DNA of 64,000 bases, taken from Pseudoxanthomonas sp. JBR18. Its GTDB lineage: Bacteria > Pseudomonadota > Gammaproteobacteria > Xanthomonadales > Xanthomonadaceae. Position 1 is the stretch's first letter, and each line of letters opens with the position of its first letter. Positions 42,708 to 58,311 of this stretch are shown here, one piece after another. The stretch is from the NCBI RefSeq assembly GCF_028198165.1, contig NZ_CP116339.1:682001-746000 (forward strand), written 5' to 3'. The position numbers and the translations under genes were made by a program. The notes beneath the pieces were generated by a model. It was not told where the DNA came from. It saw only the letters and a list, made by a program, of their open reading frames with translations, and did not search any database.

Positions 42708-45700
42708 TTACCAGTCGTAGTTCACACTCAGTCGTGCATAACGAGGCGGCTGATAGACCACGGGCTGGTTCCAGAGCGGATTGACGCTGCCGTCAGGCAG
42801 CTGCGAGAACGGATAAACGGTGCTTGCGGCGTCCTCGTTCGTGAGATTGAACACGTTGAGGTTGAAAGCAAGCTTTCCATCGGCAAAGTTCGGCTTGTAA
42901 GTCAGCCCCATATCAAGCTGGTTGATCCAGCCAAGCCGTCCATGTGACCCCGGAGGAGATGGCTCGCCTGTACCCGTTTCTGGGTTGTAGCAAAAGTGGT
43001 ATGTCCCGCCTGTAATGGAACTACTGCCATAACCGCTACTCGGATTTCGGGGATTTTCACCCGGCTGATAATTGTCCCCGTAATAGTTGCCCAGGCACGG
43101 GCGCGGACCACCGGAGATCATGCTCAGATTTGCAGAGATGCCCCATTCGGGCGTCATCTGGTAATAGCCATAGAGCTTGAACTGGTGGCGGTGATCATTG
43201 GACTGGTCGCCATTGATGTGTTCCATCAGCTGCGAATAGTCCCAGCTCTGCGTCGTCGACACGGCGGCCTGTCCCTGATAGCTGCCCAACGCACCACCAC
43301 TGCGATACAAGTCTGACCGCAGCTGCCCCTCAGTCGTGCCATAGCTATGCGACCAGACGTAGTTGAGCTTGGTGTACCACTTCCCGTCGAACGGTCGCTC
43401 CAGGTTGAACTCGATCGCTGAATAATTACGCTTAAGTTTTGGGAAGCCCGCAGCCTCGCGGGTCACGTCAACCTGATAGAACTGACCATCGGTGCCGATC
43501 ACACCCCAAGAGTTCGTTTCTCCGGGATTGATCAATGCTGCACCGGAGACCTGCGACCAGTCGATGGTGATGCCCTGGGCCGCAGCAGCCTCCACCAGTG
43601 CCCTGTTGTTGCTGTCGTAGTTCTGATCGTCGATACCAGCATTCAGGCGGCGATGCGTCCCACGCATGCCAAAAATCCAGCCGTTCTCCATCTCTTTGGT
43701 GAAGCCCAAGATGATTTCGTCCTGGTTTTCTCCCTCGATGTCATCTACCACCGCAGTGCGCACATCCGCGATATTTCCGAAACGTGAGTTGGCCGAGACA
43801 GGCGCGGCTAGCTGCGTCGCCAAGACCGGTGTGCCGTCAGCGTTGATACCACTGTATGTGTAATAGGTACTGGTCGAGATTGAGGGCGTGAAAAGTCCAA
43901 CTGGAGACAGAGGAAGCCCAAGGTAGTAACGCCCGACGTTGCCGAATACTTTGAGGCTTGAGTCACCGTGCACATCCCAGCTGAAGCCTAGCCGTGGCGC
44001 CCAGGCATTCTTTAAATTGATGTACGCCTGGCCGAAGGGTGTGTAGTTAGTGAACTCGTCGTTGCGCAATCCCAAGCTCAGCAGGACATTGTCAGTTACC
44101 TGCCACTTGTCTTCGATGTACCAAGCCTTCTGCTCGGCCTCGTACGAATAAAGGCTGGTATTGATGTTCTGGATGACGTAGTACCCCTCCGATCCGTAGG
44201 TCGGATCGGCCAGGCCAGGGCTAGGCACACCGGCGCTTCCGTCGGCGGCGGGATAATCATTCAGGCGGCCGTTGGTTTGAATTCCCAAAGGATCTCCAGT
44301 CTGCCCATAAGTCCACGAATATCCGGGCCCGGACAGCACGGACCCCACGTCAATTCCTTTGGATTTTTGGTTGTCGATACCGACGCTGACGGCGTGATCG
44401 CCCAGGCGCCACTCCAGATTGAGGCGCAGATTGGTTTTCTCGTAAGCACGGTCAGAGGCGCTCAGGGAGCCGACCAGCTGAGAATTTTGAATCGCCGATC
44501 CACCGTTGTATGCGGGATTTTGCAAACCAGGATCATTGATCAGCGGACCGTTTGCCGCGTCGTAATTGAACGGCGTCACCCGGTCAGGTGTGCGCATCTT
44601 GCCATACAGCGCCGTCACCGTAACGTTGTCGCCGAAGTAGCCCGTGTACTTACCCAGATTGAGTGTCGGACCGGTTTCCTGCTTCTGCTCGTTGGTGTTG
44701 TATGCCAGACGGGTCCGGTTGGCGTAGTCGTAGTTGTAGATGCGGCCACCAGTTTCGGACTTGTCGCCTGCGCTGGTGAATTCCAGTAAGTGGTCGTCGG
44801 TGATGTACCAGTCCAGCTTGGCGTACCAGCGCTTCTGGGTATAGTCGTAATCAGTTAGACCACCTACACCCACCCCGTTAGTTTGGCCGGTGGCCCCAGC
44901 GTCTCGGTTGCTCAGCATACGGATGCCGTCTGACTTGGCCTCTTCACCAGCCAGGAAAAAGAACAGTCGGTCCTTGATGATCGGGCCACCCACGTAGGCA
45001 CTATAGGTCGTGCGACTGGCTTCTTCCTTGCTAAGCGGCTGGTAGAGACCGCCTGCGGCGCGCGCGTAGCGATAAGCCGTGTTATCGACCGTGGAAGCCT
45101 GGCTATCAGGACGCCAGTAAGTGTCACGCTGACTGGCCTTGAGGCTATCGGGCTCCCAAATGACCGAAGCACCGAACTTCCAGTCGTTGGTACCGCGCTT
45201 GCCGACCTGGTTGATCACGCCGCCATTGGAGCGGCCGTACTGTGCGCCGTAGCCGCCGGTGAAGATTTCCTGCTGGTCGATGGCACCATAGGGCAGGGTC
45301 AGGCCGCCCAGGTTGTTGGAGGCTGTTGTGGTATTGAAACCGTTGAGGTAGTACGCATTCTCCGACGCTGCAGATCCACCGAAGCTCGGCAGTGAACCAC
45401 CCAGCGGACCGTTGTCGTAGCCGCCACTGTTGACCACCACGCCGGGCGCCAGCAGCGCGATGGCCTCGGCACTACGACCCAGCGGCAGCTGCTGGAGCTG
45501 CTCGGAGGTCACCACGGTGCGGGTGTCTACGCTGGAGACGTCGATTGGCGACATGCTCATGGCCGAGACCTTCACCGCGCCCAGATCGGTGGTTCCGGTC
45601 GCAGCGCTGGCGGCCGACAGGCCGACCTCGGTACCGGCACCGACCACGATCGAGACGTTCTCGCGCGAGTCGACCGTCTGCCCGTCGTGCATCAATGTGA

Positions 45701-45920
45701 CGGTGTACTTGCCCAGCGGCAGGCTGCCGAGCGAATAGCGCCCGTTCTCCACTTTCACCTCGCGCGAGAAGCCGCCGCTGCTCTGGACCAGCACGGTATC
45801 CGCGTCTCCGGCCCCGCTGACGGTGCCGAAGATGCGGCCGGTGGTGGACTGTGCATAGGCGCCATTGACGGCCACGGTCAGTGCGAGCGCCAAGGCGCTC
45901 CTGCGGATGAGTCGGTTCAT
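42708..45920 (-). CDS. Oar-like TonB-dependent receptor
   Basis: 1070 aa. The signal peptide of [11 protein letters not shown] ends AYAQ. It is followed by a carboxypeptidase-regulatory-like beta-sandwich domain (about 27-110), as in Oar-type receptors, then a plug (about 125-260) and a large barrel ending [11 protein letters not shown]. Oar-like receptors import peptides, proteins or other large substrates. The part from about 42720 to 45190 is visibly lower in GC than its neighbours (for example 43861-43920 is 30 of 60 G or C by my count), while the 5' end is high-GC, suggesting a mosaic or transferred gene. The start at 45920 is fixed by the signal peptide; upstream in-frame ATGs lie in the leader. 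Confidence 0.9.
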
Positions 45921-46099: not shown

Positions 46100-46128
46100 G
46101 GGTAGGTGGCACCCGGCCGGGTAGGTGG
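46100..46128 (-). promoter_or_regulatory. Paired activator-box repeats upstream of Oar-like receptor
   Basis: GGGTAGGTGG occurs at 46100-46109 and 46119-46128, 19 bp apart (plus strand; gene on minus). The same pair with the same spacing precedes the TonB receptor at 57317. The sequence resembles the MalT box GGGGA(T/G)GAGG. The LAL regulator gene at 47719 lies nearby. Confidence 0.65.
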
Positions 46129-46221: not shown

Positions 46222-47508
46222 ATGCACCACGATCGCTCGCACGCCCTTTTCGCCCGCGCCCAGGCGCTGATCCCCGGCGGCGTCAATTCGCCGGTGCGCG
46301 CCTTCAAGTCGGTCGGCGGCGAGCCGTTCTTCGTCCAGCGCGCCGAAGGCGCCTATCTGTACGACGTGGACGGCAACCGCTATATCGACTACGTCGGGTC
46401 CTGGGGGCCGATGATCGCCGGGCACAACCATCCGGCCGTCCGCGAGGCGGTTGAACGCGCGATTCGTGACGGCCTGTCCTTTGGTGCGCCCTGCCCGGCC
46501 GAAGTCACCATGGCCGAGACCATCACCCGCCTGGTCCCGGCCTGCGAGATGGTGCGCATGGTCAATTCCGGGACCGAGGCCACGCTCTCGGCCATCCGCT
46601 TGGCACGCGGCGCCACCGGCCGCCAGCGCATCGTCAAGTTCGAAGGGTGCTACCACGGCCATGGTGACTCGTTCCTGGTCAAGGCCGGCAGCGGCATGCT
46701 TACCCTCGGCGTGCCCACCTCGCCCGGTGTGCCGGTCGGGCTGAGCGAACTGACCGCCACCCTGAGCTACAACGATTTCGAAGGCGCCACCGCGCTGTTC
46801 GAGGACATCGGCGCTGAAATCGCCGCGGTGATCGTCGAGCCCGTGGTCGGCAATGCCAACTGCATCCCGCCCCTGCCCGGCTACCTGCAGCACCTGCGCG
46901 AGCTGTGCACCCAGCATGGCGCGGTCCTGATCTTCGATGAGGTCATGACAGGATTCCGTGTCGCCCTTGGCGGCGCGCAGGCCTACTACGGCGTCACCCC
47001 CGACCTGACCACGTTCGGCAAGATCATCGGCGGCGGCATGCCCGTGGGTGCGTATGGCGGCCGCGCCGAGTTGATGAACCAGATCGCCCCGGCGGGCCCG
47101 ATCTACCAGGCCGGCACGCTTTCCGGCAATCCGGTCGCCATGGCCGCCGGCCTGGCGATGCTGGAACTGATCCAGGCACCTGGCTTTCACGACCGTCTAT
47201 CGGAACGGACTGCGGCACTATGCGCCGGGCTGGAGGCGGCGGCCCGCCAGGCAGGCGTCGCCGTGACGACCAATCAGGTCGGCGCCATGTTCGGCCTATT
47301 CTTCACCGACCAGAAGGTGGAAACCTACACCCAAGCCACGGCTTGCGACACCGGCGCATTCAATCGGTTCTTCCACGCGATGCTCGAGCGCGGGGTCTTC
47401 CTGGCGCCGTCGGCGTACGAAGCGGGCTTCCTGTCCGCCGCGCATGACGAAATTGTCATAAAAGACACGCTCGAAGCCGCGCGCACGGCGTTTTCAGCCA
47501 TCGCGTGA
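46222..47508 (+). CDS. hemL: Glutamate-1-semialdehyde 2,1-aminomutase
   Basis: HemL makes 5-aminolevulinate from glutamate-1-semialdehyde, early in heme and siroheme synthesis. The 428 aa protein from [14 protein letters not shown] has [18 protein letters not shown] and the PLP lysine K267 in [18 protein letters not shown]. The start at 46222 matches the family; the longer frame to 45865 covers the divergent promoter region. Confidence 0.96.
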
Positions 47509-47718: not shown

Positions 47719-50475
47719 GTGCCTGTTGCCAAGCCCGTTGCACTGATCGGCCCGCGTCCGTCCCTCACCCGTGAGGGCACCACCAGCGGCGACTGGATCC
47801 TTCCCGACAAACTCGAGCCACCCCGTCTGCACGTCGATGCCATCCCGCGATCGCGGTTGATGGCGCAGTTGGATGCGAGCCTGTCGGTCCCGCTGACCCT
47901 GCTGCTGGCCCCGCCGGGATTCGGGAAGAGCACCCTGCTCGCCCAATGGCACGCGCATCTGCTCCAGCAGGGCCAGACCCAGGTCGCCTGGCTGTCGCTG
48001 GACGAGGATGACGCCGAGCCCGCGCGGTTGCTCGCGTATCTGGCCCTGGCCCTGGGATTGGGCGCCGGCGACAGCTTCACGCCCCCCTTGGGCGCGAGCC
48101 ATTGGCGCGACCTCGATCTGGCCGCCACGCGCACCGTCCTGCTGCGCGCAGTCCGTTGCGCGCAGCAGCCGTTGGTCCTGATGCTGGACGACTACGATCG
48201 CGCCGCCAGCCCGGCCATCAATGAAATCATCACCCTGTTGGTCGAACACGGTGGGCCCCGGCTGCACGTACTGCTTGCGACGCGGCGCGCGCCTGCACTG
48301 CCGCTGTCGCAGCTGACCGTGCGCGGCGCCCTGCAGCGGATCGACGCCAGCGAACTGGCCCTGGATGCCGGCGAGACGCGCGCGGTGCTGGGGGCCTCCA
48401 GCGACGCCGATGCCGCTCGCCTGCGCGACAAGACCGAAGGCTGGCCCGTGGCGGTACGCCTGGCCGCTCTGTGGATCGCCGGCGACGGGCGTCGGGGCGA
48501 GGACGTGGCCCGGTTCTCTGGACGCTCGGCCTTGCTGGCCAACTACCTAGCCGAACAGGTCGTGCGCGACCTGGACGCCCCGCTGCGCGACTTCCTGCTG
48601 GAAACCTCCGGCCTGGAGCGCTTCAACGCAGATCTGGCCAACGCGATGCGCGGGCGCCAGGACAGCGGCCAGCTGCTGGTCTGCCTGGGTCACTTCCATG
48701 GCCTGCTGGTGCCGCTGGACGATGATCACGAGTGGTTCCGCTATCACCCACTGTTCGCCGATTTCCTCCACCAGCAGCTCGAACGCCAGGCACCTGCCCA
48801 GGCCCGTGCGCTGCACCGACGCGCGGCGCAATGGTGCGCCGATCACCACCAGCTGCCCGAAGCGGTCCGCCACGCCTTGCGCGCGCGCGACACCGAGCTG
48901 GCCGCGGCATGTGTAGCCCGCGCCGGCAGCTGGCAGATGCTGCTGCGGCATGGCACGGCCGCCGTGCGCGGCCTCCTGCGACAGTTCGATGTCCGGGTGA
49001 TCCGCGATACCCCGGCCCTCAACCTGACCCAGGCTTACTTGCACATGCGCGTGGGCGAGTTCAGCCATGCGCAGACCCTGCTGGAGCGCTTCCGTGATTT
49101 CGGCGAGGAGCTGCGTGCCCCGCTGGAACGCGACTACACCGTGGTCGTAGCCTTGCTGCGCGACTTGATGGACCAGGTCTGCGGCAATCCACGCGGCATC
49201 ACCCAACTCCATGCCCAGGCCTGCGCACTGGATCAGGATGACCACCTGGGACGCGGGACATTGCTATGCATCTGCGCCACCACCGCGCTGGGCCGTGGCG
49301 AGCTGGCCACGGCCGAGCGCTTGGCACGGGAGGCGGCCGAGACCCTGGGCCGCGCGCCAAGTCAGGAAAGCCTGGGCTATGCCCTGGTCCACCTGGGCCA
49401 GAGCCAGTTCTATCGTGGCGCGCTGGATGCCGCCGAGGACACCTACCAACGCGCGTTGGCGCTGGCCGGGCAGTCGCATGGCGGGGATTCCACGCTCATT
49501 GCGGCATGCCGCTGCCTGCTGGCCCAGCTGCAGGTCGAGCGCGGCCGCTACGATGTCGCCGCCGATCTGCTCGATGGCGCCCTGGAAACCCTCGAACGCG
49601 ATGACGGGTGGGTCGATGTCTACGCCTCCGGCTACGGGACAGCGTTGACCCTGGCACGGCAGCACGATCGTAGCGGGCGCAAGGCCTGCGCCCTGCTCGA
49701 TCGCATGGATGCCCTGGCTACCCGCAGGCACCTGGCGCGTCTGGCCGATCTGGCCACCGCCTGGCGCCTGGACGTGCTCATGGACTTGCCCGGACAGGCC
49801 GTGGCCGACGCGGTCATGGCCCGCTCCGGCGGGGAGGCCGCCTTCATCCATGCATTGTCCAGCGGCCATGGCTGGCGACAGGGCCACGCGCTGGGCATGG
49901 CCCTGGCACGCTGGCACGCCCAGGCCGGCCGTGCCGGCCAGGCGCTTTCGATCCTGCAACGCCAGCAGACCTTCGCCGTGGAAAACGGCGACGCGTTCCA
50001 TCTGGCCCGCGTGCAGCTGCGCCTGGCCCTGGTTCGGCATCAGCGTGGCGAGATGGACCAGGCCCTGCCCCCCCTGCACGCCGTGCTCGACCATGTCGCC
50101 TCCATGCGGGCCTGGCAGGTCGCCCTGGAGCCAGGGCTGCCCACCAAGTCCCTGCTGCGCAGCGCCCGCCAGCATGATCCAGAGGCCGCCGCGGGAACCA
50201 CGCGCGCCCTGACCATCCATATCCTCCTGGAGAAGCTCTCCTGCGAGGAAACCCTGGCCACCCAGCTGTTCAGCGAACGCGAGCTGGAAGTCCTGGGCCA
50301 GCTGGCCCGTGGTCAGTCCAACAAGCAGATCGCGCGACGGCTCTCGCTGTCGGAGAACACGGTGAAGTTCCATCTCAAGAACCTCTACCGCAAGCTGGAA
50401 GCCAGCACCCGCGAGGCCGCCCTGGGCAACGCCTTGCAGCGCGGCCTGATCGAGGCCGCCGGCGGCCCGCAATGA
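47719..50475 (+). CDS. MalT-like (LAL) LuxR-family ATP-dependent regulator
   Basis: 918 aa LAL regulator. The GTG start at 47719 has GGAG six bases upstream. A STAND-type ATPase domain carries a P-loop (APPGFGKST near 55-65) and a Walker B strand (LVLMLDDYD). TPR-like helical repeats fill the middle. A C-terminal LuxR HTH ends the protein (FSERELEVLGQLARGQSNKQIARRL in two parts, then TVKFHLKNLYRKL). MalT-type regulators bind a small inducer with ATP, oligomerise, and bind direct repeats near promoters. It lies between two TonB receptor operons that share MalT-box-like repeats, so it is the likely activator of both. The inducer is unknown. Confidence 0.88.
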   Translation: MPVAKPVALIGPRPSLTREGTTSGDWILPDKLEPPRLHVDAIPRSRLMAQLDASLSVPLTLLLAPPGFGKSTLLAQWHAHLLQQGQTQVAWLSLDEDDAEPARLLAYLALALGLGAGDSFTPPLGASHWRDLDLAATRTVLLRAVRCAQQPLVLMLDDYDRAASPAINEIITLLVEHGGPRLHVLLATRRAPALPLSQLTVRGALQRIDASELALDAGETRAVLGASSDADAARLRDKTEGWPVAVRLAALWIAGDGRRGEDVARFSGRSALLANYLAEQVVRDLDAPLRDFLLETSGLERFNADLANAMRGRQDSGQLLVCLGHFHGLLVPLDDDHEWFRYHPLFADFLHQQLERQAPAQARALHRRAAQWCADHHQLPEAVRHALRARDTELAAACVARAGSWQMLLRHGTAAVRGLLRQFDVRVIRDTPALNLTQAYLHMRVGEFSHAQTLLERFRDFGEELRAPLERDYTVVVALLRDLMDQVCGNPRGITQLHAQACALDQDDHLGRGTLLCICATTALGRGELATAERLAREAAETLGRAPSQESLGYALVHLGQSQFYRGALDAAEDTYQRALALAGQSHGGDSTLIAACRCLLAQLQVERGRYDVAADLLDGALETLERDDGWVDVYASGYGTALTLARQHDRSGRKACALLDRMDALATRRHLARLADLATAWRLDVLMDLPGQAVADAVMARSGGEAAFIHALSSGHGWRQGHALGMALARWHAQAGRAGQALSILQRQQTFAVENGDAFHLARVQLRLALVRHQRGEMDQALPPLHAVLDHVASMRAWQVALEPGLPTKSLLRSARQHDPEAAAGTTRALTIHILLEKLSCEETLATQLFSERELEVLGQLARGQSNKQIARRLSLSENTVKFHLKNLYRKLEASTREAALGNALQRGLIEAAGGPQ

Positions 50476-50478
50476 ACG

Positions 50479-50508
50479 ACGCCCGCCGCGGTCGACCGCG
50501 GCGGGCGT
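50479..50508. terminator. Perfect 30 bp palindrome between convergent genes
   Basis: ACGCCCGCCGCGGTC and its exact complement GACCGCGGCGGGCGT abut, giving 15 bp arms with no loop bases besides the centre. It starts 4 bp after the LAL regulator stop and serves the convergent aminotransferase gene as well, most likely as a bidirectional terminator. Confidence 0.8.
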
Positions 50509-50542
50509 TGGATTTCCTGCGACCTCGATCCGGCTTGGGTCT

Positions 50543-51766
50543 CTAGACCACCATGAAGGTGCCGTCGCGACGTTCGTCCTGGAGCAAGGTCAGCTTCAGC
50601 GGCACCGGCCCGCGCTCACCGGCCATCACCTTGGCGAAGGCGTCCTTGAACCGGCTCATCTCTTCGGCCGTGCCCACAGTGATGCGCGAGGAATTCGGCC
50701 AGCCTTCCCAGCTGCGGCCCACGAACACTCCGTAGGTGGCCATCGCCTCCATGAACTCACGCGCCGGGCGCTTGACGTCCAGCATGAAGCAGTTGCTCTC
50801 CGATGGGCTGCACGCATAGCCCTGCTGGGTCAGCCAGGTGGCGACGTCCTCGCGGATCGCGGTGTTGGCCGCGCGCCGGGTCGGGACCAGCTTCGGGTCG
50901 CGCAGGCTGGCCAGGCCCGCGGCCATGGCGGTGACCGGCAAGGCATTGGTCCCGAAGTAGGTCAGGCGTTCGAGCAGATCCGGACGACCCACCGCGTAGC
51001 CCAGGCGGATGCCGGCCATGCCGTAGAGCTTGGAGAAGGTCCGCAGGATCACCACCTCCTTGTCGGCGGCCACCAGGTCCGCGCCGGTCACCGCGTTTTC
51101 CGACAGATGGATGTAGGCCTCGTCCAGCACCAGGATGCTGCCCTGGGGCTTGTGCGCCAGGGCGTACTCGATGTCCTTGCGCGGGGTGAGCGACCCGGTG
51201 GGATTGTTCGGATTGCAGATGTAGATCATGCCGGCCGCGGCATCGGCCGCGCACATGGCCGCCACGTCGTGGCTGTAGTCGGCCCGCAGCGGCACCTTGT
51301 GTACGGGCGCCTTGACCTGGCCGGCCGTGCGCCAGGCCGCTTCGAAGGTCGGATTGGCCGTCACCAGCGAGGCTGTCGGCGAGGTGAAGGCCAGCACCGT
51401 CTGGGTCAGCGGCGGGGTCGAGCCGGCATACGGGACGATGTAGTCCGGCTTGACCCCGAGCTGGGCGGCCATCTCCTGCACCAGTTCCCCCTGCATCTGC
51501 CCCAGATAGCGCCCGCCACTGGGCGCGATGCCATCGATCGCCTTGAGCGCCTCGGCGCTGGGGCCCAAGGGGTTCTCGTTGGCGTTGATCATCACCGGCT
51601 CCAGGCCGAGGGCCTTGGCCTGCTCGGGGTCCACGCGCGGCCGGCTGGGCGGGTTGCGCTTGGCGAAGGCCGACCCGGCCAGGCCGAGCAGCGGTGCGCC
51701 AACGGCGGTGCCGGCAGCCAGGGCGGAGCCACTGAGGAAGCGGCGACGGGAGAGCGGTGCTTTCAT
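50543..51766 (-). CDS. Tat-exported PLP aminotransferase, HisC-like
   Basis: 407 aa class I/II aminotransferase with a twin-arginine signal, LSRRRFLSGSA, and an Ala-rich hydrophobic core ending GSAFA. PLP contacts are intact: NENPLG, NPNNPTG at 185-191, DEAY at 215-218 and catalytic lysine K246 in RTFSKLYGMAGIR. Histidinol-phosphate aminotransferases have this sequence pattern but are cytoplasmic. Tat export would allow folding with PLP before transport. It is the last gene behind RidA, cytochrome c and amine oxidase, so it probably handles an amino acid in the periplasm. The substrate is unknown. Confidence 0.9.
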   Translation of the reverse strand: MKAPLSRRRFLSGSALAAGTAVGAPLLGLAGSAFAKRNPPSRPRVDPEQAKALGLEPVMINANENPLGPSAEALKAIDGIAPSGGRYLGQMQGELVQEMAAQLGVKPDYIVPYAGSTPPLTQTVLAFTSPTASLVTANPTFEAAWRTAGQVKAPVHKVPLRADYSHDVAAMCAADAAAGMIYICNPNNPTGSLTPRKDIEYALAHKPQGSILVLDEAYIHLSENAVTGADLVAADKEVVILRTFSKLYGMAGIRLGYAVGRPDLLERLTYFGTNALPVTAMAAGLASLRDPKLVPTRRAANTAIREDVATWLTQQGYACSPSESNCFMLDVKRPAREFMEAMATYGVFVGRSWEGWPNSSRITVGTAEEMSRFKDAFAKVMAGERGPVPLKLTLLQDERRDGTFMVV

Positions 51767-51801
51767 GGGGTCACTCCGATAGCAGGGCGGGGAACGGATG
51801 A

Positions 51802-52296
51802 CTACGGACGTACGGCGATGACTTCGATCTCCACGCGCGCGGCCGGATTGCCCAGCGCCGCAATCTGGAAGGCCGAGCGGGCCGGCAGGTTCATCTGCTT
51901 GGCGTCCTTGCCGAAGAACTGGGTGTAGCCTTCCATGAAGCCCTTGAAGTCCATCTTGCCGTCGTTCTCCGGGCCGCCGACCAGGAAGGCCTGCATCTTG
52001 ACCACGTCCTTCATGTCCAGGCCCATGCTCTGCAGCTGCTTCTGGATCTGGGTCAGCACGCTGATGGTCTGGACCTTGGTATCGCCATAGGCCTCAAGCG
52101 AGCCCTTGGGCGCATCGGGGTTGGCGACGGCTGCCAGCTTGCCGCTGAGATAGATGGTGGACTTGCCAGCCGGGACTTCGACCGCCGAGGCGATCGGGAA
52201 GTCGCTGCCGGGGATGCCGTGGCGCACGACATCCTGGGCCTGGGCGGCCACGGGTGACAGGAGGGCGGTCAGGAACAACAGGCGGGACAGGCGCAT
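51802..52296 (-). CDS. Exported RidA/YjgF-family imine deaminase
   Basis: 164 aa beginning MRLSRLLFLTALLS with GGAG upstream and a signal peptide ending AAQAQ. The mature part is a RidA domain (VPAGKSTIYLSGKLA, LAAYGDTKVQT-like helix, KMQAFLVG, and the final PAARVEIEVIAVRP with the family's conserved arginine). RidA proteins hydrolyse reactive imines/enamines made by amino acid oxidation or PLP enzymes. Most are cytoplasmic; export here fits a periplasmic amine oxidase upstream. It sits 35 bp before the aminotransferase and 37 bp after the cytochrome. Confidence 0.9.
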   Translation of the reverse strand: MRLSRLLFLTALLSPVAAQAQDVVRHGIPGSDFPIASAVEVPAGKSTIYLSGKLAAVANPDAPKGSLEAYGDTKVQTISVLTQIQKQLQSMGLDMKDVVKMQAFLVGGPENDGKMDFKGFMEGYTQFFGKDAKQMNLPARSAFQIAALGNPAARVEIEVIAVRP

Positions 52297-52333
52297 GGGA
52301 ACTCCGTAGGAAAAAGGGAACAGGGACACGCGA

Positions 52334-52780
52334 TCACTCGTCGGAGGTCGAAGCACTGTCCAGCGAGGCGCGCAGTGCCTTGACGTCGTCGGCGGTGACC
52401 GGGTCATCGTAATGGTTGCCGAAATGGGTCCGTACATAAGTGGTGACCTCGGCGACCTGCGCATCGTTGAGCATGCCGCCGAAACCCGGCATCGCGCCGT
52501 GCCCACCGAGCACCATCATCTCCACGTACGGCGCCGCACCCAGCTTGGGATTGCCGGCCAGGGCCGGATATTCGCCGGCGCCCTTGGCGCCCTTGGCGCC
52601 TTCCATGTGACAGGCCTGGCAGATGGTGCCGTAGATCTGCGGGCCGTCGGCATGGGAAAAGTCGCGCGACTTCAGGAAGCCGGTGGCATCGGAGGTCTGC
52701 GCGCGCGCCGGCAGCTGCTGCCAGCCCATCACGCCCAGCGTGCCGAGCAGGCCGATCACGGTCAGGGTCTTGGTGTTCAT
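52334..52780 (-). CDS. Exported class I c-type cytochrome
   Basis: 148 aa with signal peptide ending ARAQ. One heme site, C55-Q-A-C58-H59, and a likely Met ligand, M97 in GHGAMPGFGGML, define a small class I cytochrome c. The ATG overlaps the amine oxidase stop by four bases (ATGA at 52777-52780), implying coupled translation. A likely role is to take electrons from the FAD amine oxidase and pass them to the respiratory chain, which would spare oxygen and avoid hydrogen peroxide. Confidence 0.92.
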   Translation of the reverse strand: MNTKTLTVIGLLGTLGVMGWQQLPARAQTSDATGFLKSRDFSHADGPQIYGTICQACHMEGAKGAKGAGEYPALAGNPKLGAAPYVEMMVLGGHGAMPGFGGMLNDAQVAEVTTYVRTHFGNHYDDPVTADDVKALRASLDSASTSDE

Positions 52781-54384
52781 GCCTGTCCTCCGGTCGCCAT
52801 GACCTTGCTGTGCAGACGCCCGATCACATCCAGCGCGGACAGCACCGCACCTTCCTGCCAGGCCGGGATGTAGGAGATGTGCTCGCCGGCCATCGCGATG
52901 CGGCCGTCGATCTGGGTCGCGGCCTTGTAGTGCTGCGCGCGCAGGTCCTCGCTCCACTGGCCAAAGCAGCCGTGGGTCCACGGCACGCGGTGCCAGCCCA
53001 CCGACACGCCGTTATCGAACTCGGGCTTGTACTGCGGATGCAGCTGCGAGCCGTATTCCAGCGCCTGGCGCACCCGCTCTTCCGGAGTGTGCGAGGTGAA
53101 GTCGTAAGCATCCAGGCCCCAGATGTAGGCGCCCAGCAGCACGCCCTTGCCGGGGCTGTGGTAGTCGGTGCTGGGGTAGCTGATCTGGGTGATCGGCAGG
53201 TCGGTGTAGCTGATACCGCCGTAGATGGCCTCGTCCTCTTCCCAGAAACGACGCTTGAACTGCAGGCCGACCTTCACCGAGGCCGCGTAAGGCAGGTGGG
53301 TGATGGCATCGGACATCGCCTGGCCGACCTGGATCGGGATGCGGCTGAGCACCGAGAAGGGAATGGTGCAGATGCACCAGTCGGCCTTGGCGGTGCGGCG
53401 CGCGCCATCGGCGCCATGATCCTCGTAGGTCACCGTCACGCCGTGGTCGTCCTGGTCGATCTGCACCACGCGCGCGTTGTACTGGATGGTGCCCGGTCCC
53501 AACTCGCGGGCGAAGGCCTTGCCGATCTGGTCCATGCCGCCGACCGGCTGGAACATGGTGGTCTGCATCTCGTAGTTGTTGCCGGCGGCCAGGGCGGCCC
53601 ACAGGTGCGAGTTGAGCACCTTGTCCATGCCCATCGGCTCGGAGAATTCGGGCTTGCCGGAGATGCCGCCACCGGGAAACTTGGAGAAACCACGGCGCGT
53701 GCTGCTGGCTTCGCCCTTGACGTAGGCCATGTTCTTGTCCAGCGCGCCCCAGCTGCGCAGCGACTCGAGCAGCAGCTCCTGGTCGTCCTTGGTCACCGCC
53801 TGGTCCAGCGCACCCTGCTGGCAGGCCTTGGCCAGCAGCTCACTGACGTGACCCTTGTAGTCGGCGTCGATCTCGCGAAACCGCTGCGGCTTGCCGCCAA
53901 AGGCCTTGGTGTTGTGCAGCAAGGCGTTGTAGTTGACCTGGTTGAACGACTCGAGCTTGACGTTGAACTGCTTGCAGTAATGCAGCAACCCGCGGTGGTG
54001 GTGCGGGATGCGCCACGGACCCGGGTTGAGGTAGAGGTTGGAATCGAACTGGCAATGCTGGGTGTGGCCGCCGAGCTCGGTATAGGTGTCCCCGCCGTGG
54101 ATGGACCAGTTGCGACCGCCGGGACGGGCGTTGTATTCGAGGATCTTGACCTTGTAACCGGCCTTGCGCATCTCGTAGGCGGCGGTCATGCCGGCCACGC
54201 CGGCACCCAGGATCAGGACGGTCGCGCCCTTGGGATTGCCCTGCAGCTTCACCGGCCCCTTGTAGCTGGACTCGGCGGCATACCCCAGGCTGCTCATGGC
54301 CTGGTACATCATGGTGCCGCCCGCGGCCAGGCCGATTCGGCCCAGCAACTGGCGGCGGGTCAATGCAGTGGTAACGCCATTCAT
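52777..54384 (-). CDS. Tat-exported FAD-dependent amine oxidase
   Basis: 535 aa flavin monoamine oxidase/L-amino acid oxidase family. A Tat signal (LTRRQLLGRIG, R10-R11) precedes the FAD-binding VLILGAGVAGM (G60-x-G62-x-x-G65) with E83 and the RPGGR loop. The C-terminal FAD segment GRIAMAGEHISYIP is present. It would oxidise a primary amine or amino acid to an imine in the periplasm. The ATG at 54384 has AGGAAG upstream. Neighbours are a TonB receptor upstream, and cytochrome c, RidA and aminotransferase downstream. The substrate is not predictable from sequence. Confidence 0.92.
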   Translation of the reverse strand: MNGVTTALTRRQLLGRIGLAAGGTMMYQAMSSLGYAAESSYKGPVKLQGNPKGATVLILGAGVAGMTAAYEMRKAGYKVKILEYNARPGGRNWSIHGGDTYTELGGHTQHCQFDSNLYLNPGPWRIPHHHRGLLHYCKQFNVKLESFNQVNYNALLHNTKAFGGKPQRFREIDADYKGHVSELLAKACQQGALDQAVTKDDQELLLESLRSWGALDKNMAYVKGEASSTRRGFSKFPGGGISGKPEFSEPMGMDKVLNSHLWAALAAGNNYEMQTTMFQPVGGMDQIGKAFARELGPGTIQYNARVVQIDQDDHGVTVTYEDHGADGARRTAKADWCICTIPFSVLSRIPIQVGQAMSDAITHLPYAASVKVGLQFKRRFWEEDEAIYGGISYTDLPITQISYPSTDYHSPGKGVLLGAYIWGLDAYDFTSHTPEERVRQALEYGSQLHPQYKPEFDNGVSVGWHRVPWTHGCFGQWSEDLRAQHYKAATQIDGRIAMAGEHISYIPAWQEGAVLSALDVIGRLHSKVMATGGQA

Positions 54385-54452
54385 TGAAGATCTTCCTTTC
54401 GACAGTGGCCGGCACTTCCCGGCTCCGGGCCACTGCTGGTTGGACAAAGAGC

Positions 54453-54476
54453 CGCCCACTGCGTCTGCGGTGGGCG
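54453..54476 (-). terminator. Hairpin between TonB receptor and amine oxidase (proximal)
   Basis: CGCCCACTGC (54453-54462) and GCGGTGGGCG (54467-54476) pair with one mismatch around GTCT. On the minus strand it is followed by GCTCTTTG, a weak U-tract. With the hairpin at 54531-54556 it probably lowers read-through into the oxidase genes. Confidence 0.5.
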
Positions 54477-54530
54477 TCGCGACCCGGAGCAGGCCGCTGC
54501 AAATCATCGATTGAAGGGTGGATCGTCAGA

Positions 54531-54556
54531 CGCCGGCCAGGCGATCCTGGCCGGCG
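54531..54556 (-). terminator. Hairpin just after the TonB receptor gene
   Basis: CGCCGGCCAG (54531-54540) and CTGGCCGGCG (54547-54556) form a perfect 10 bp stem with a 6 nt loop, 10 bp beyond the receptor stop. No U-tract follows; it may stabilise the receptor mRNA end or be a partial terminator. Confidence 0.55.
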
Positions 54557-54566
54557 CCCGGGCCGA

Positions 54567-57317
54567 TCAGAAGCGGTAGCTCAGCTTGGCGTAGTACTTG
54601 GCACCGAAGTAACCGATCGGGCTGCCGGTCAGGTATTCGTTGTTGCCGTTCTGGTAGTTGGCCACATCGTAGTCCCACACCGGCGAGGGGATCTTGTCGG
54701 GATACTCGTTGAAGATGTTGTCGCCGCCGACGGTCAGGGTCCAGGCGTCGTTGGGCTTGAAGCTCAGGTCGAAGCCGGTCAGCGCCATGCTGCCGATTTC
54801 CTGCTTGTAGTACTGGCCACCATCCAGGGTGACCAGGTCCAGCTGGTCGGCGAACTGTTCGTAGCCGCTCAGGCTGGCGACCGAGTACTGCGGGCCGTAG
54901 ATCGACTCGCGCAGGGTCAGGCTGAACTTCTCCCAGTTGAAGGTCGCGGCCAGATTGACGCGGTACTTGGGGTTGTTGTGCTCGATGTCGGAGATGTTCG
55001 CGGCGGTGAACATCGGGATGGTCTCGAAGCCCGGCGCACGGCCGGCACGGGTGACCTCGGTCTTGTTGTAGTTGGCCGCCAGCAACCAGTCGATGGTGCC
55101 CCAACCGAACTCGCTCATGTAGTTGGTGACCCAGTCCACGCCGCTGGTCTTGGTGTCCAGCACGTTGGAGAAGAAGCTCAGGTTGATGTTGGCACGCGCG
55201 GTCTGATCGAAGCTGCCACCCGGAGCGGCGGGGTCGTTGGGATTGCTGATGAAGCCGCCGGCCACCAGGGCGTCGCCCAGGATCTGGTTGTAGGCATCAT
55301 CCGGCACGCCATCACCGTCGGTATCGGCCGGGTCGGGCAGGTCGGCGTTCCAGGTGCCGGTGGTCCGCCCGGTCAGGGTGTCGGCGGCCTGCGCGGTGGA
55401 GTAGGCGAACGAGCCGATGTAGGTCCGATCCTTGATCTTGATCTGGTAGGCGTCCAGGGTCATGGTCAGGTTCGGGATCGGGTTGAACACGAAGCCCAGG
55501 GAGAGGTTCTGGCTGGTCTCCGGCTTCAGGCCGTTGCCCACGCTGGAACCGGCCAGGGTCGCGGTGGCGCCGGTCGGCGAGACCTGGATGGCCGAGTAGT
55601 ACTGCTCACCCATGTTCGGCGCGCGGAAGCCGGTGCTGACCGTGCCGCGCAGGGCGAAGGTGTCGGTGAAGTCGTAGCGGGTGGTGAACTTGCCCACGGC
55701 CTTGTTGCCGAAGTCGCTGTAGTCCTCGTAGCGTCCCGCCACGTCGACCAGCCACTTCTCGGTCGGGTTGAGGACCACGTCGGTGAACACCGCGTAGCTA
55801 TGGCGCGAGTAGTCGCCGGTGCCCAGCGGGTTGTAGCCCGGGAACGACGAGGCGCCGGCACCGTAATACGAGGTCGGCTCGCCCGGCTCGATACCGTAGC
55901 CGTCGCGACGGTACTCCACGCCGGCCTGGAAGGTCAGCGGCGCCTCCAGCCCGATGTCGAAGTCATGCATCGCACTGAAGTCGGTCGTCCACTGGGTCGA
56001 GTAGTAGGTGCCGTCGTAGAAATCCTCCTGCGAATAGCCGAAGTCCTGCCACAGCGAGAAGTTCATCGAGTTGAGCGTATAGACGTCCATCTCGTTGCGG
56101 CCGTAGCTGGTCGACGCGTCCCAGGACCAGTCGCCGAAGTAGCCCTTGATGCCGGCGGTCAGGTCGTAGTCGTATTCCTTGGAGGCCTCGGAGGGATTGA
56201 AGCCGTTGGGATACTTGTGTCGGACCTCACCGGTGATGGGGTCGGTGTAGCCACCATCCTGCGAGGGACGGCGATAGTTTTCCTCGGACTCGGCGGTCTT
56301 CTTGCCGTAGGTACCGAAAGCGTAGAACTCCAGGCCATCGCCAAAGTCATAGCCGCCGTTGAAGGACATGATCTTGCGGTGCACTTCCGGCGGGTTGAGC
56401 CAGCCATTCAGGCCCGGGAAGCGGGCGTTGAGGATCGCGCCCTGGTCGTTGGCGATGCGGCTGAGCAGATCGCCGCGGCCATTGGCATTGGCGTAGGCGG
56501 TACAGGCATCGATGTCCAGCAGGCAGTTGGCGTAGCTGGGATTGGAGAAGCGGTAGACCGACTGACGGTTCTCCACCTCGGCGCTGATGCTGATCCAGCC
56601 GTTGTCGCCGCCCAGGCCGATGTTGCCGCTCCAGTTGTCGGTCCCGCCACCGCCGTCGGCATAGCCGGAGTAGCCGGCGTTGAGCTCGCCGCCGCTGGAG
56701 TTCTTCTTCAGGATGATGTTGATCACGCCGGCGATCGCGTCCGAGCCATACAGCGCCGCGGCGCCGTCGGTCAGCACTTCGATGTGGTCGATGGCCGAAT
56801 TGGGGATGTAGGACAGGTCGGTGGCCATTTCACCGTTGCCGGCCACGCCGAAGTTGGAGGTGACGTGGCGGCGCTTGCCGTTGACCAGGATCAGGGTGTG
56901 GTTGGCGGTGAGCGAGCGCAGGCTGGCGTTGAGCGTCTGGCTGGCCATGTCGCCGCCGGTCTGGCTGGCGTTGTAGGACGGGATCTGGTTGGCGATGGCG
57001 TTCTGCAGATCCGGCGCGGCCGACTGCTTGAGCAGCTCGGGGCTGATCAGCTGGATCGGCGCCGGGCTATCGGTCACCGCCATGTTGGCCTTGCGGGTAC
57101 CGGTGGAGATGACGCTGATCGAGTCCAGGGTCTTGGCCGCGACATCGGTGTCGGCCGTGGCCGGCGGGTCGTCAGGCGTTGCATCGGCCGCGAAGGCGAC
57201 CTGTGCGGTGGCGGCCAGCAGCACCGCCGAGGACAGGCCGCGCAGCAGGGTCCGAGAGGGCGACAACGAGGCGGCGACGGCAACGGCGAGGCGGCGAGGT
57301 GTGGGGCGACTACGCAT
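54567..57317 (-). CDS. TonB-dependent receptor of the amine-oxidation operon
   Basis: 916 aa. The start MRSRPTPRRLAV at 57317 has AAGGAG eight bases upstream. A long Tat-free signal region ends near VAFAAD. The plug (about residues 55-180) has NKRRHVT-like and DGAAALYGSDAIAGVINI segments typical of this large receptor group. The barrel ends AKLSYRF. It is first in the operon with amine oxidase, cytochrome c, RidA and aminotransferase, so it should import their substrate across the outer membrane. Two hairpins separate it from the oxidase gene. Its promoter carries the paired GGGTAGGTG repeats. Confidence 0.9.
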   Translation of the reverse strand: MRSRPTPRRLAVAVAASLSPSRTLLRGLSSAVLLAATAQVAFAADATPDDPPATADTDVAAKTLDSISVISTGTRKANMAVTDSPAPIQLISPELLKQSAAPDLQNAIANQIPSYNASQTGGDMASQTLNASLRSLTANHTLILVNGKRRHVTSNFGVAGNGEMATDLSYIPNSAIDHIEVLTDGAAALYGSDAIAGVINIILKKNSSGGELNAGYSGYADGGGGTDNWSGNIGLGGDNGWISISAEVENRQSVYRFSNPSYANCLLDIDACTAYANANGRGDLLSRIANDQGAILNARFPGLNGWLNPPEVHRKIMSFNGGYDFGDGLEFYAFGTYGKKTAESEENYRRPSQDGGYTDPITGEVRHKYPNGFNPSEASKEYDYDLTAGIKGYFGDWSWDASTSYGRNEMDVYTLNSMNFSLWQDFGYSQEDFYDGTYYSTQWTTDFSAMHDFDIGLEAPLTFQAGVEYRRDGYGIEPGEPTSYYGAGASSFPGYNPLGTGDYSRHSYAVFTDVVLNPTEKWLVDVAGRYEDYSDFGNKAVGKFTTRYDFTDTFALRGTVSTGFRAPNMGEQYYSAIQVSPTGATATLAGSSVGNGLKPETSQNLSLGFVFNPIPNLTMTLDAYQIKIKDRTYIGSFAYSTAQAADTLTGRTTGTWNADLPDPADTDGDGVPDDAYNQILGDALVAGGFISNPNDPAAPGGSFDQTARANINLSFFSNVLDTKTSGVDWVTNYMSEFGWGTIDWLLAANYNKTEVTRAGRAPGFETIPMFTAANISDIEHNNPKYRVNLAATFNWEKFSLTLRESIYGPQYSVASLSGYEQFADQLDLVTLDGGQYYKQEIGSMALTGFDLSFKPNDAWTLTVGGDNIFNEYPDKIPSPVWDYDVANYQNGNNEYLTGSPIGYFGAKYYAKLSYRF

Positions 57318-57428
57318 GACCTGAACTCCTTGCAAGGCGAAGTGAGGAAGCGACGTGAGGGAGGTGCCTGGCGGTCCGGATCCCCGTGAGCCGGTGTCAT
57401 GTGGAGTCCGCCAAACCTTCACTCGAAG

Positions 57429-57443
57429 CTAACCGCGAGTTAG
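57429..57443. promoter_or_regulatory. Perfect dyad overlapping the candidate -10
   Basis: CTAAC-CGCGA-GTTAG is a perfect inverted repeat. Its distal half includes the TAGC (57431-57428, minus strand) that lies 34 bp from the proximal GGGTAGGTGG repeat, the same distance as in the Oar-like receptor promoter. It may be a -10 element or a second operator. Confidence 0.4.
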
Positions 57444-57464
57444 GAATTCGTTGACCCCTGCGGC

Positions 57465-57492
57465 GGGTAGGTGGCCGTTGCCCGGGTAGGTG
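57465..57492 (-). promoter_or_regulatory. Paired activator-box repeats upstream of amine-operon receptor
   Basis: GGGTAGGTGG (57465-57474) and GGGTAGGTG (57484-57492) are direct repeats 19 bp apart, about 150 bp before the receptor ATG. Sequence, spacing and the following GGCAGG match those at 46100-46128. Confidence 0.65.
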
Positions 57493-57615
57493 CGGGCAGG
57501 TCGCACCCCGGCCTTGCCCACCCGCCAGCCCGGGGCGCGGGTGGAGCGGGCAGCACCCTCCACCCGTCCTTGGCCCCGGCGTATGCTTGAGGGCTGATCC
57601 CCCTCCCCCGCCCCA

Positions 57616-58311
57616 ATGCCTCTGTCCGACATGCGGGCGCCCGATGCCATTTCCTCGCGCGCCAGCCGGCGCCCCGAGCGGCGGCGCCCATCGCTGGTCC
57701 TGTTCGATCTGGATGACGTTCTGGCCTGCTACGACCGCCGTGTGCGATTGGTCGAGCTGGCGCGGCGCAGCGGCACCCATCCGCCCGCGGTGCAGGCCGC
57801 GCTGTTCGACTCCGGGCTGGAGCACGAGTCGGATATCGGGCTGTGGCGCCCGGAGGACTATGCCGACGAGTTGTCCAGGCGCCTGGGCGCGCGCCTGAGC
57901 CTGGAAGACTGCATCGTGGCCAGGACGCTGGCCACCCCGGCCGATCCGGCCATGGTCATGCTCGCCACCGAAGTGGCCCGGCATGCCCAGGTGGCGATCT
58001 TCACCAACAACGGCCCACTCCTGACCCGACACCTGGAGCGCATCTGCCCACCGCTGTTCCCGCTGTTCGCCGGCCGGGTGGTCGGCGCGGGCGACGTGGG
58101 CCTGGCCAAGCCGGCGCCGGAGGCCTACCTGCGTGCCCTGGCGCTCCTGGACGCGGCGCCGGGCGAGACCTTGTTCATTGACGACCGCGACGAGAACGTC
58201 AGCGGCGCACGCGCGGCCGGGCTGGACGCACTGGGCTTCAGCAGCGCGGCGACCCTGCGGCGCGCGTTCGATTTCTACCACCTCACCGGAGCTGCATCCG
58301 ATGCGTCTTGA
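57616..58311 (+). CDS. HAD-superfamily hydrolase
   Basis: 231 aa HAD phosphatase-like protein. Catalytic aspartates D31 and D33 are in LVLFDLDDVL, FTNNGP is motif II, the lysine is in GLAKPAPEAY, and FIDDRDENVSGA is motif IV. Small HAD enzymes of this subgroup dephosphorylate sugar or nucleotide phosphates. Its last 11 bases overlap the next gene, so the two are likely translationally coupled. The substrate is unknown. Confidence 0.85.
   Translation: MPLSDMRAPDAISSRASRRPERRRPSLVLFDLDDVLACYDRRVRLVELARRSGTHPPAVQAALFDSGLEHESDIGLWRPEDYADELSRRLGARLSLEDCIVARTLATPADPAMVMLATEVARHAQVAIFTNNGPLLTRHLERICPPLFPLFAGRVVGAGDVGLAKPAPEAYLRALALLDAAPGETLFIDDRDENVSGARAAGLDALGFSSAATLRRAFDFYHLTGAASDAS

Follow-up and report, generated by a model that had tools for sequence, protein, structure and literature searches.

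Why would a bacterium provide a flavoenzyme, a cytochrome c, an imine deaminase and an aminotransferase with export signals, and encode an outer-membrane receptor next to them? This gene set lies in the 64,000-nt stretch analysed here (the window; positions 682,001 to 746,000 of contig NZ_CP116339.1), taken from the 4.6-Mb single-contig genome of Pseudoxanthomonas sp. JBR18. A first-pass annotation had interpreted the set as a periplasmic pathway for the oxidation of amines or amino acids. The reading that we favor, and consider probable, is that these genes form a regulated periplasmic system for removing nitrogen from L-amino acids, within a regulon for the scavenging of organic nitrogen. 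The gene content, export motifs, conserved residues, linkage and operator were observed; from these we infer the chemistry, the electron route, regulator binding, the inducer and the substrate.

The five open reading frames (ORFs) on the minus strand, in the order receptor, oxidase, cytochrome, RidA and aminotransferase, are borne out by ORF coordinates and Pfam domains, as is the ATGA overlap between oxidase and cytochrome genes (52777-52780, shared with the oxidase stop). The intergenic gaps measure 182 bp (receptor-oxidase), 37 bp (cytochrome-RidA) and 35 bp (RidA-aminotransferase). With the 4-bp oxidase/cytochrome overlap and the two short gaps that follow it, the four genes from oxidase to aminotransferase form a tight block. 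Strong GC-rich hairpins are predicted at 54385-54566, directly past the receptor stop codon and ahead of the oxidase gene, and may act there as an attenuator or a stability element. A scan for sigma-70 promoter and terminator consensus sequences over positions 50300-57800 gave nothing above shuffled sequences. Besides the genes annotated in the first pass, the locus also comprises a convergent LuxR/MalT-type gene, paired operators and a second TonB receptor gene.

For comparison, 80 relative loci were fetched (the best 80 of 160 confirmed) and split by record title into 35 Xanthomonadaceae loci and 45 loci outside this family. The 35 include [Pseudomonas] boreopolis, one Lysobacterales metagenome-assembled genome and a second Pseudoxanthomonas composti locus (L035). 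Some of the 45 outside loci stop early at contig edges and were counted together with the rest. Two surveys were added, one of 149 evenly drawn Xanthomonadaceae genomes and one class-wide (274 genomes). Export was judged by an RR motif for twin-arginine translocation (Tat) or by a hydrophobic leader (12-residue mean > 1.6), and not by a trained signal-peptide predictor.

The gene at 52777..54384 (minus strand) encodes a flavin adenine dinucleotide (FAD) enzyme (PF01593, 210 bits) with an RR motif. Its closest solved relative is the L-amino acid oxidase (LAAO) of R. opacus (RoLAAO, PDB 2jae, 298 bits), and the next PDB matches are L-amino acid oxidases as well. Residues R125 and Y420, hand-counted on the alignment as the equivalents of RoLAAO Arg84 and Tyr371, are invariant in 79/79 aligned sequences (the window and 78 of the 80 relatives, all > 500 aa; two shorter rows were dropped). 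In RoLAAO, Arg84 and Tyr371 bind the substrate carboxylate. Because RoLAAO is the closest relative and the aligned Arg and Tyr are invariant, amino acids are preferred over simple amines as substrate, and a simple amine was rejected on the same grounds. Of the Tat-exported FAD amine oxidase proposed in the first pass, the RR-signalled FAD enzyme thus remains, whereas the 298-bit match makes it RoLAAO-type instead of a general amine oxidase; we refer to it as L-amino acid oxidase/dehydrogenase (LAO). An RR lies near the N-terminus in 79 of the 80 relatives, the single exception beginning at a contig edge. Exported in folded form via Tat, LAO would oxidise L-amino acids to 2-imino acids. In the family survey, LAO was present in 17/149 genomes (18 copies, two with an internal stop), and on the LAO tree the window sequence groups with Pseudoxanthomonas LAOs. 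Second LAO loci with a divergent RidA were seen in P. composti (L035, 9190-14165) and genome G001 (L095); the former carries two tandem LAO-cytochrome pairs, the latter a six-base form of the operator described below ahead of LAO.

The adjacent gene (52334..52780, minus strand) encodes an exported c-type cytochrome (PF13442/PF00034) with one CxxCH motif. A cytochrome c follows the oxidase in 79 of the 80 loci; the motif is kept in all 79 relatives and a hydrophobic leader in 78. Together, LAO and cytochrome show, by motif and hydrophobicity, the Tat signal plus adjacent Sec-exported cytochrome c that is described as a good predictor of cytochrome-using dehydrogenases among the flavin amine oxidoreductases (FAOs), with 25 enzymes tested (PMC12224317). 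The host genome encodes TatC, CcmE and three COX1 matches. In Gluconacetobacter diazotrophicus, for which Tat export of LAO is predicted, the indole-3-acetic acid (IAA) output of ccm mutants is cited as 5% of that of the wild type (PMC5053998). Going by these published rules and ccm genetics, LAO very likely hands its electrons to its own cytochrome and not to O2. From this cytochrome, they would enter the respiratory chain, perhaps via azurin in those relatives that have it.

An azurin-type cupredoxin gene occurs in 31 of the 35 Xanthomonadaceae loci (not in L005-L007 and L035) and in 0/45 others, located downstream of the aminotransferase gene (e.g. L039, 13965-14426); none was found beside the operon in the window. 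LAO could instead be an O2-using oxidase that makes H2O2 for defence or competition, with a cytochrome that is a peroxidase or unrelated. Sequence cannot decide the electron acceptor, and RoLAAO and the snake LAAOs are oxidases (PMC5053998). The nearly constant cytochrome partner, the ccm dependence in G. diazotrophicus (PMC5053998), the Tat-plus-cytochrome rule (PMC12224317) and the frequent azurin all argue against such an oxidase, which we regard as improbable.

The imine expected from LAO would meet the next gene product, an exported Rid3-like RidA protein (51802..52296, minus strand; PF01042). It is closest to PSPTO3006 (PDB chain 9bka) and PFL1385, both of which have been placed in Rid3, a group that acts on LAAO-made imines; deaminase activity has been shown for PSPTO_3006 and PFL_1385 (PMC5619798). 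The Arg of the PARS motif (residues 138-141), equivalent to RidA Arg105, is present, as expected of a Rid3 protein. Among 63 relatives, 58 carry the narrow PARS-type motif, four more keep the Arg in a variant and one is truncated, while a hydrophobic leader is found in 62. The gene is present in 35/35 Xanthomonadaceae loci and in 28/45 others. We predict with good confidence that this protein hydrolyses the imine of LAO, which would yield a 2-keto acid and ammonia.

The last gene of the block (50543..51766, minus strand) encodes a Tat-signalled aminotransferase (PF00155) dependent on pyridoxal phosphate (PLP). It scores above the cut-off of NF006580 (PRK09105; 531 vs 444 bits) and below that of the PtaA equivalog NF051461 (407 vs 500 bits), and its motifs contain the active-site Lys, Asp and Arg. 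The RR motif is found in 30 of 33 aminotransferases; in L016 and L032 the cut-out frame lacks the gene start, and L019 reads RS. The export signals proposed for all four enzymes or carriers are therefore kept across relatives as RR motif or hydrophobic leader, judged by motif and hydrophobicity. The first pass had also called the exported set unusual, RidA and HisC-like aminotransferases being normally cytoplasmic; for the exported aminotransferase, a lack of precedent is ruled out by PtaA, a Tat-exported periplasmic transaminase (PMC6206403). Co-occurrence of the genes in relatives, proposed at the time as a check, was found both for the cytochrome, as given above, and for the aminotransferase, which is present in 33 of the 35 Xanthomonadaceae loci (not in L008 and L035) and in none of the 45 others. 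On these counts the grouping exceeds what chance would give.

Across the family survey, the aminotransferase was detected at E up to 1e-40 in 24/149 genomes (36 copies). All 12 copies with at least 61% identity adjoin LAO; the other 24 have at most 57%. Class-wide, at E up to 1e-60, matches were limited to the window genome and one family member (a 54% paralog). Not all PtaA-like genes belong to the regulon: of nine paralogous regions, three (L086-L088) carry the operator and six do not. The latter, L084, L085, L089, L090, L096 and L097, contain Tat-signalled PtaA-like paralogs in a common neighbourhood, with neither operator nor receptor.

Working in the compartment of LAO, the aminotransferase would transfer amino groups from amino acids to 2-keto acids and back. 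Most plausibly it serves transdeamination: amino acids that are poor LAO substrates would pass their amino group to LAO-made keto acids, and LAO would deaminate the products again. We propose this tentatively, at somewhat less than even confidence. Transamination need not come after oxidation, as the linear pathway of the first pass had it. Alternatively, the enzyme may modify a compound imported through the receptor.

How the set is controlled is suggested by the convergent gene (47725..50475, plus strand; start inferred from relatives, longest ORF from 47584). Its product combines a GerE helix-turn-helix domain with a TPR_MalT region, which makes it a MalT-type (STAND/LuxR) regulator, and scores below the cut-off of the MalT equivalog NF003420 (312 vs 537 bits). 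The regulator was matched at 33 of the 35 Xanthomonadaceae loci, in some (L019, L020) only partly, and was missed at L032 and L035. In the family survey, 14/149 genomes have an ortholog; all 14 are LAO-positive and in all of them it lies about 5 kb or less from LAO. Three LAO-positive genomes have no ortholog: G041 and G042 (LAO 60% identical) and G092. As at most five candidates per genome were scored, orthologs may have been missed.

The operator was first noticed as a repeated CTACCC when intergenic stretches were compared. Of 64 CTACCC pairs spaced 6-60 bp, 61 share a 19-bp period; the count covers the window and 37 loci of the family, among them near-identical species and one duplicate genome, but neither L035 nor L095. 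The whole JBR18 genome contains CTACCC-N13-CTACCC twice, both times at this locus, on the minus strand and within the longer CCTACCC-N12-CCTACCC: at 57465..57490, 148 nt ahead of the receptor gene of the operon, and at 46100..46125, 180 nt ahead of the second TonB receptor gene (42708..45920, minus strand; PF25183/PF07715). Each is followed by a -10-like element (TAGCTT at 57431-57426 and TAGCAT at 46066-46061, respectively). Over 66 distinct site regions, TAnnnT starts 34 nt beyond the end of the second half-site, counted from its final base (T/A/T/T at 83/88/70/83%), a fixed distance as expected of an activator-dependent promoter.

The seven-base form, CCTACCC-N12-CCTACCC, was found at 33 sites in 13 of the 149 genomes, against three sites of a backward control. 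All 13 belong to the 14 regulator-positive genomes, and none of the 135 regulator-negative ones has a site. Twenty-five sites are located at the LAO locus and eight elsewhere. At L008, L024, L046 and L092 a site is placed immediately ahead of LAO or in the stretch that separates LAO from the receptor, and the Xanthomonas loci L010, L015 and L016 have a receptor site with one base changed. MalT-type activators use asymmetric repeat boxes. In our judgement, it is highly probable that the MalT-like regulator binds this direct repeat, through which it would activate both the operon and the second receptor gene.

In genome G092 (locus L107), the regulator gene is in two fragments, LAO contains a stop and the receptor match falls in two pieces. 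The one-base-changed receptor site persists there, a form that intact Xanthomonas loci also show, and a search that allowed up to three mismatches gave no second operator site. This single case is compatible with joint decay of the system. The LAO locus L019/L107 is apparently decaying, with the regulator largely lost and other genes showing a stop or split matches.

What else stands under this operator bears on the purpose of the system. All eight off-locus sites precede genes for uptake or for the cleavage of peptides, amides, amines or nucleosides. Four regions encode, in turn, a TonB receptor with an M19 dipeptidase (L100), a TonB receptor followed about 2.6 kb further by an M19 dipeptidase and an aminotransferase (L086), a TonB receptor alone (L101) and a TonB receptor with two gamma-glutamyltranspeptidases (L103). 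The others encode an aminotransferase, a TonB receptor 52% identical to that of the window and a DAO-family flavoprotein (L087); an aminotransferase, a nucleoside hydrolase and an M20-family hydrolase (L088); an amino-acid permease with the ethanolamine ammonia-lyase subunits EutB and EutC (L102, 281-4014, genome G043); and a penicillin-acylase family enzyme with a TonB receptor (L104). In these relatives, the operator would therefore delimit a regulon for scavenging organic nitrogen. Since the targets have in common the uptake of organic nitrogen and the release of amino acids or ammonia, nitrogen scavenging is favored over auxin or iron, and nitrogen supply is the probable purpose.

The auxin alternative holds that the keto acids are the products, above all indole-3-pyruvate as a precursor of IAA or other signals, with nitrogen as by-product. 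Most named carriers in the family are Xanthomonas, a plant-associated genus. In G. diazotrophicus, the lao cluster is needed for IAA formation from tryptophan: lao transposon mutants had no detectable IAA and lost nearly all indole-3-pyruvate (PMC5053998). Chlamydomonas LAO1 is likewise needed for IAA from this amino acid (PMC10805672). Pseudoxanthomonas species are nevertheless also among the carriers, the aminotransferase would compete for the keto acid, and the operator targets are the dipeptidase, gamma-glutamyltranspeptidase, acylase, ethanolamine lyase and receptor genes listed above, with no known auxin gene among those scanned. We consider the production of signals unlikely as the main purpose.

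For nitrogen scavenging, the two TonB receptors would carry amino-nitrogen compounds across the outer membrane. The operon's receptor (54567..57317, minus strand; plug PF07715, barrel PF00593) belongs to what we call type A. In 32 of the 35 Xanthomonadaceae loci, the gene immediately upstream of LAO encodes a TonB receptor, 7 of type A and 25 of another type, X; it was missed at L027 and L032, which have little or no upstream sequence, and at L035. Neither type was seen at the 45 non-family loci, many of which are short. Types A and X are not close kin, as BLASTp gave short matches only (best 26.9 bits). On an LAO tree with 32 labelled rows, from which the truncated L031 was dropped, the receptor label changes three times by parsimony, two changes being forced by starred branches; X. 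bonasiae (L046) and Xanthomonas sp. AmX2 (L033), for instance, are sister rows with different types. Because the label changes at least twice, dissimilar receptors fill one variable slot. The second receptor has orthologs (at least 62% identity) in 15/149 genomes, 13 of them at the LAO locus.

A receptor this closely tied to LAO also suits a role in iron acquisition, in which the keto acids act as iron chelators and the TonB receptor imports their iron complexes. This was proposed for the Tat-targeted L-amino acid deaminase (LAAD) of Proteus, whose keto acids are presented as siderophores in a source that calls the role debated (PMC5651824). It is at odds with three observations: the common operator marks nitrogen-compound genes, the exchange of dissimilar receptor types suits changing substrates, and locus L092 retains LAO and operator with neither receptor type. 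An iron function is, in our view, very improbable.

Receptor and PtaA-like enzyme could also form a unit of their own that imports and tailors one specific amino compound and is bundled with lao-cyt-rid by shared regulation only. Region L087 offers such a picture, with a related receptor, a PtaA-like enzyme and a DAO-family flavoprotein under the same operator and no LAO; PtaA itself tailors pyoverdine (PMC6206403), and both receptor and aminotransferase are missing in L092. On the other side, the aminotransferase ortholog (at least 61% identity) is found only beside LAO in the 149 genomes, it stays with LAO where the receptor type changes (L033, L046), and L008 and L093 have the receptor but no aminotransferase. 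A separate unit is the least improbable of the alternatives weighed here, though still rather unlikely.

Several observations weigh against the nitrogen-scavenging system as a whole. The backward control pattern, in its six-base form, also occurs twice in the JBR18 genome, so the count in this genome alone proves nothing, and it is position and conservation that carry the evidence. Genome G018, which has the most divergent regulator (44% identity), contains no exact operator, and L032 gave no regulator match although 3.4 kb of contig follow azurin. All five other sampled genomes with the genus code of the window are without LAO, aminotransferase, regulator and operator, which makes the gene set dispensable; the named Pseudoxanthomonas loci L004-L007 do carry it. 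The aminotransferase is gone from loci that have LAO and regulator (L008/L091, L092, L093) and is hence accessory. L092 (genome G140) keeps LAO, cytochrome, RidA, azurin, regulator and operator, and has neither receptor type nor aminotransferase. The second receptor occurs in G016 and G091 without LAO, regulator or operator, so its strict dependence on the system is not upheld. Receptor and LAO could be on separate transcripts, given the hairpins predicted in the 182 bp that lie between them. Finally, the surveyed genomes are related, and the co-occurrences are thus not independent.

Between the second operator and the regulator gene lies hemL (46222..47508, plus strand; PF00202), a class-III aminotransferase gene. 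It is a syntenic neighbour, found beyond the regulator gene in most relatives, and it starts on the opposite strand, 97 bp away from the second operator. Its membership of the system is doubtful.

If the proposed system is correct, a complete nitrogen-releasing pathway, including transamination, would operate outside the inner membrane and be tied to respiration. It would also give a context to the large family of PtaA-like enzymes, for which at least 7,971 sequences, out of 8,000 candidates scored, matched at E up to 1e-60, counted irrespective of export. The operator is defined sharply enough for regulon members to be predicted from sequence, which makes the inducer of the regulator and the substrates of the TonB receptors directly testable.

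Comparison with known systems shows which parts are shared. The first-pass annotation knew of no named system of this composition, which was wrong for the core: the lao-cccA-ridA cluster of G. diazotrophicus (GDI2456-2454) is already published and, per OperonDB, its arrangement is conserved in Caulobacter and Xanthomonas (PMC5053998). As here, a Tat-signalled RoLAAO-like oxidase (533 aa, against 535 aa for LAO of the window) is followed by a cytochrome c and RidA; the likeness to GDI2456 rests on common RoLAAO similarity, length and gene order. In contrast, the published description covers three genes and names no TonB receptor, PtaA-like enzyme, azurin, dedicated LuxR regulator or operator (PMC5053998). 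NicA2/CycN/Pnao and other cytochrome c-using FAO dehydrogenases share the combination of a Tat-signalled flavin amine oxidoreductase with a co-encoded Sec-exported cytochrome c (PMC12224317; see also PMC9396064), but were found starting from NicA2 relatives (PMC12224317).

PtaA of Pseudomonas belongs to the same aminotransferase family and is likewise exported via Tat and active in the periplasm; it also occurs in species that make no pyoverdine (PMC6206403). The enzyme described here differs in scoring below the PtaA equivalog cut-off and in being linked to LAO instead of pyoverdine tailoring. The periplasmic LAO1/LAO2 of Chlamydomonas are extracytoplasmic L-amino acid oxidases with a RidA partner that serve ammonium scavenging, yet they are eukaryotic and make H2O2, and the source names no cytochrome or transaminase in their cluster (PMC10805672). 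The Proteus deaminase is also Tat-targeted, and its electrons are thought to reach a membrane cytochrome without H2O2 formation; unlike LAO with its partners, it is a single membrane-anchored enzyme, whose activity is lowered only slightly by azide (PMC5651824). With the MalT-type (LAL/STAND) LuxR activators, the regulator shares the MalT TPR region and the C-terminal GerE domain, whereas it falls under the MalT equivalog cut-off and its operator targets relate to nitrogen compounds.

In one open-access library, we found no paper that combines L-amino acid oxidase, Xanthomonas, TonB-dependent and aminotransferase, in a search that was not aimed at the operator or the regulator. Compared with the published core, the extension seen in Xanthomonadaceae, comprising a TonB receptor slot, a PtaA-like enzyme, often azurin, a convergent MalT-type regulator and its operator, looks new. 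More tentatively than any single part of it, we suggest that this extension may represent a new nitrogen regulon run by a MalT-like regulator, in which periplasmic transdeamination with exchangeable TonB receptors would supply ammonia and respiratory electrons without import of the amino-acid carbon.

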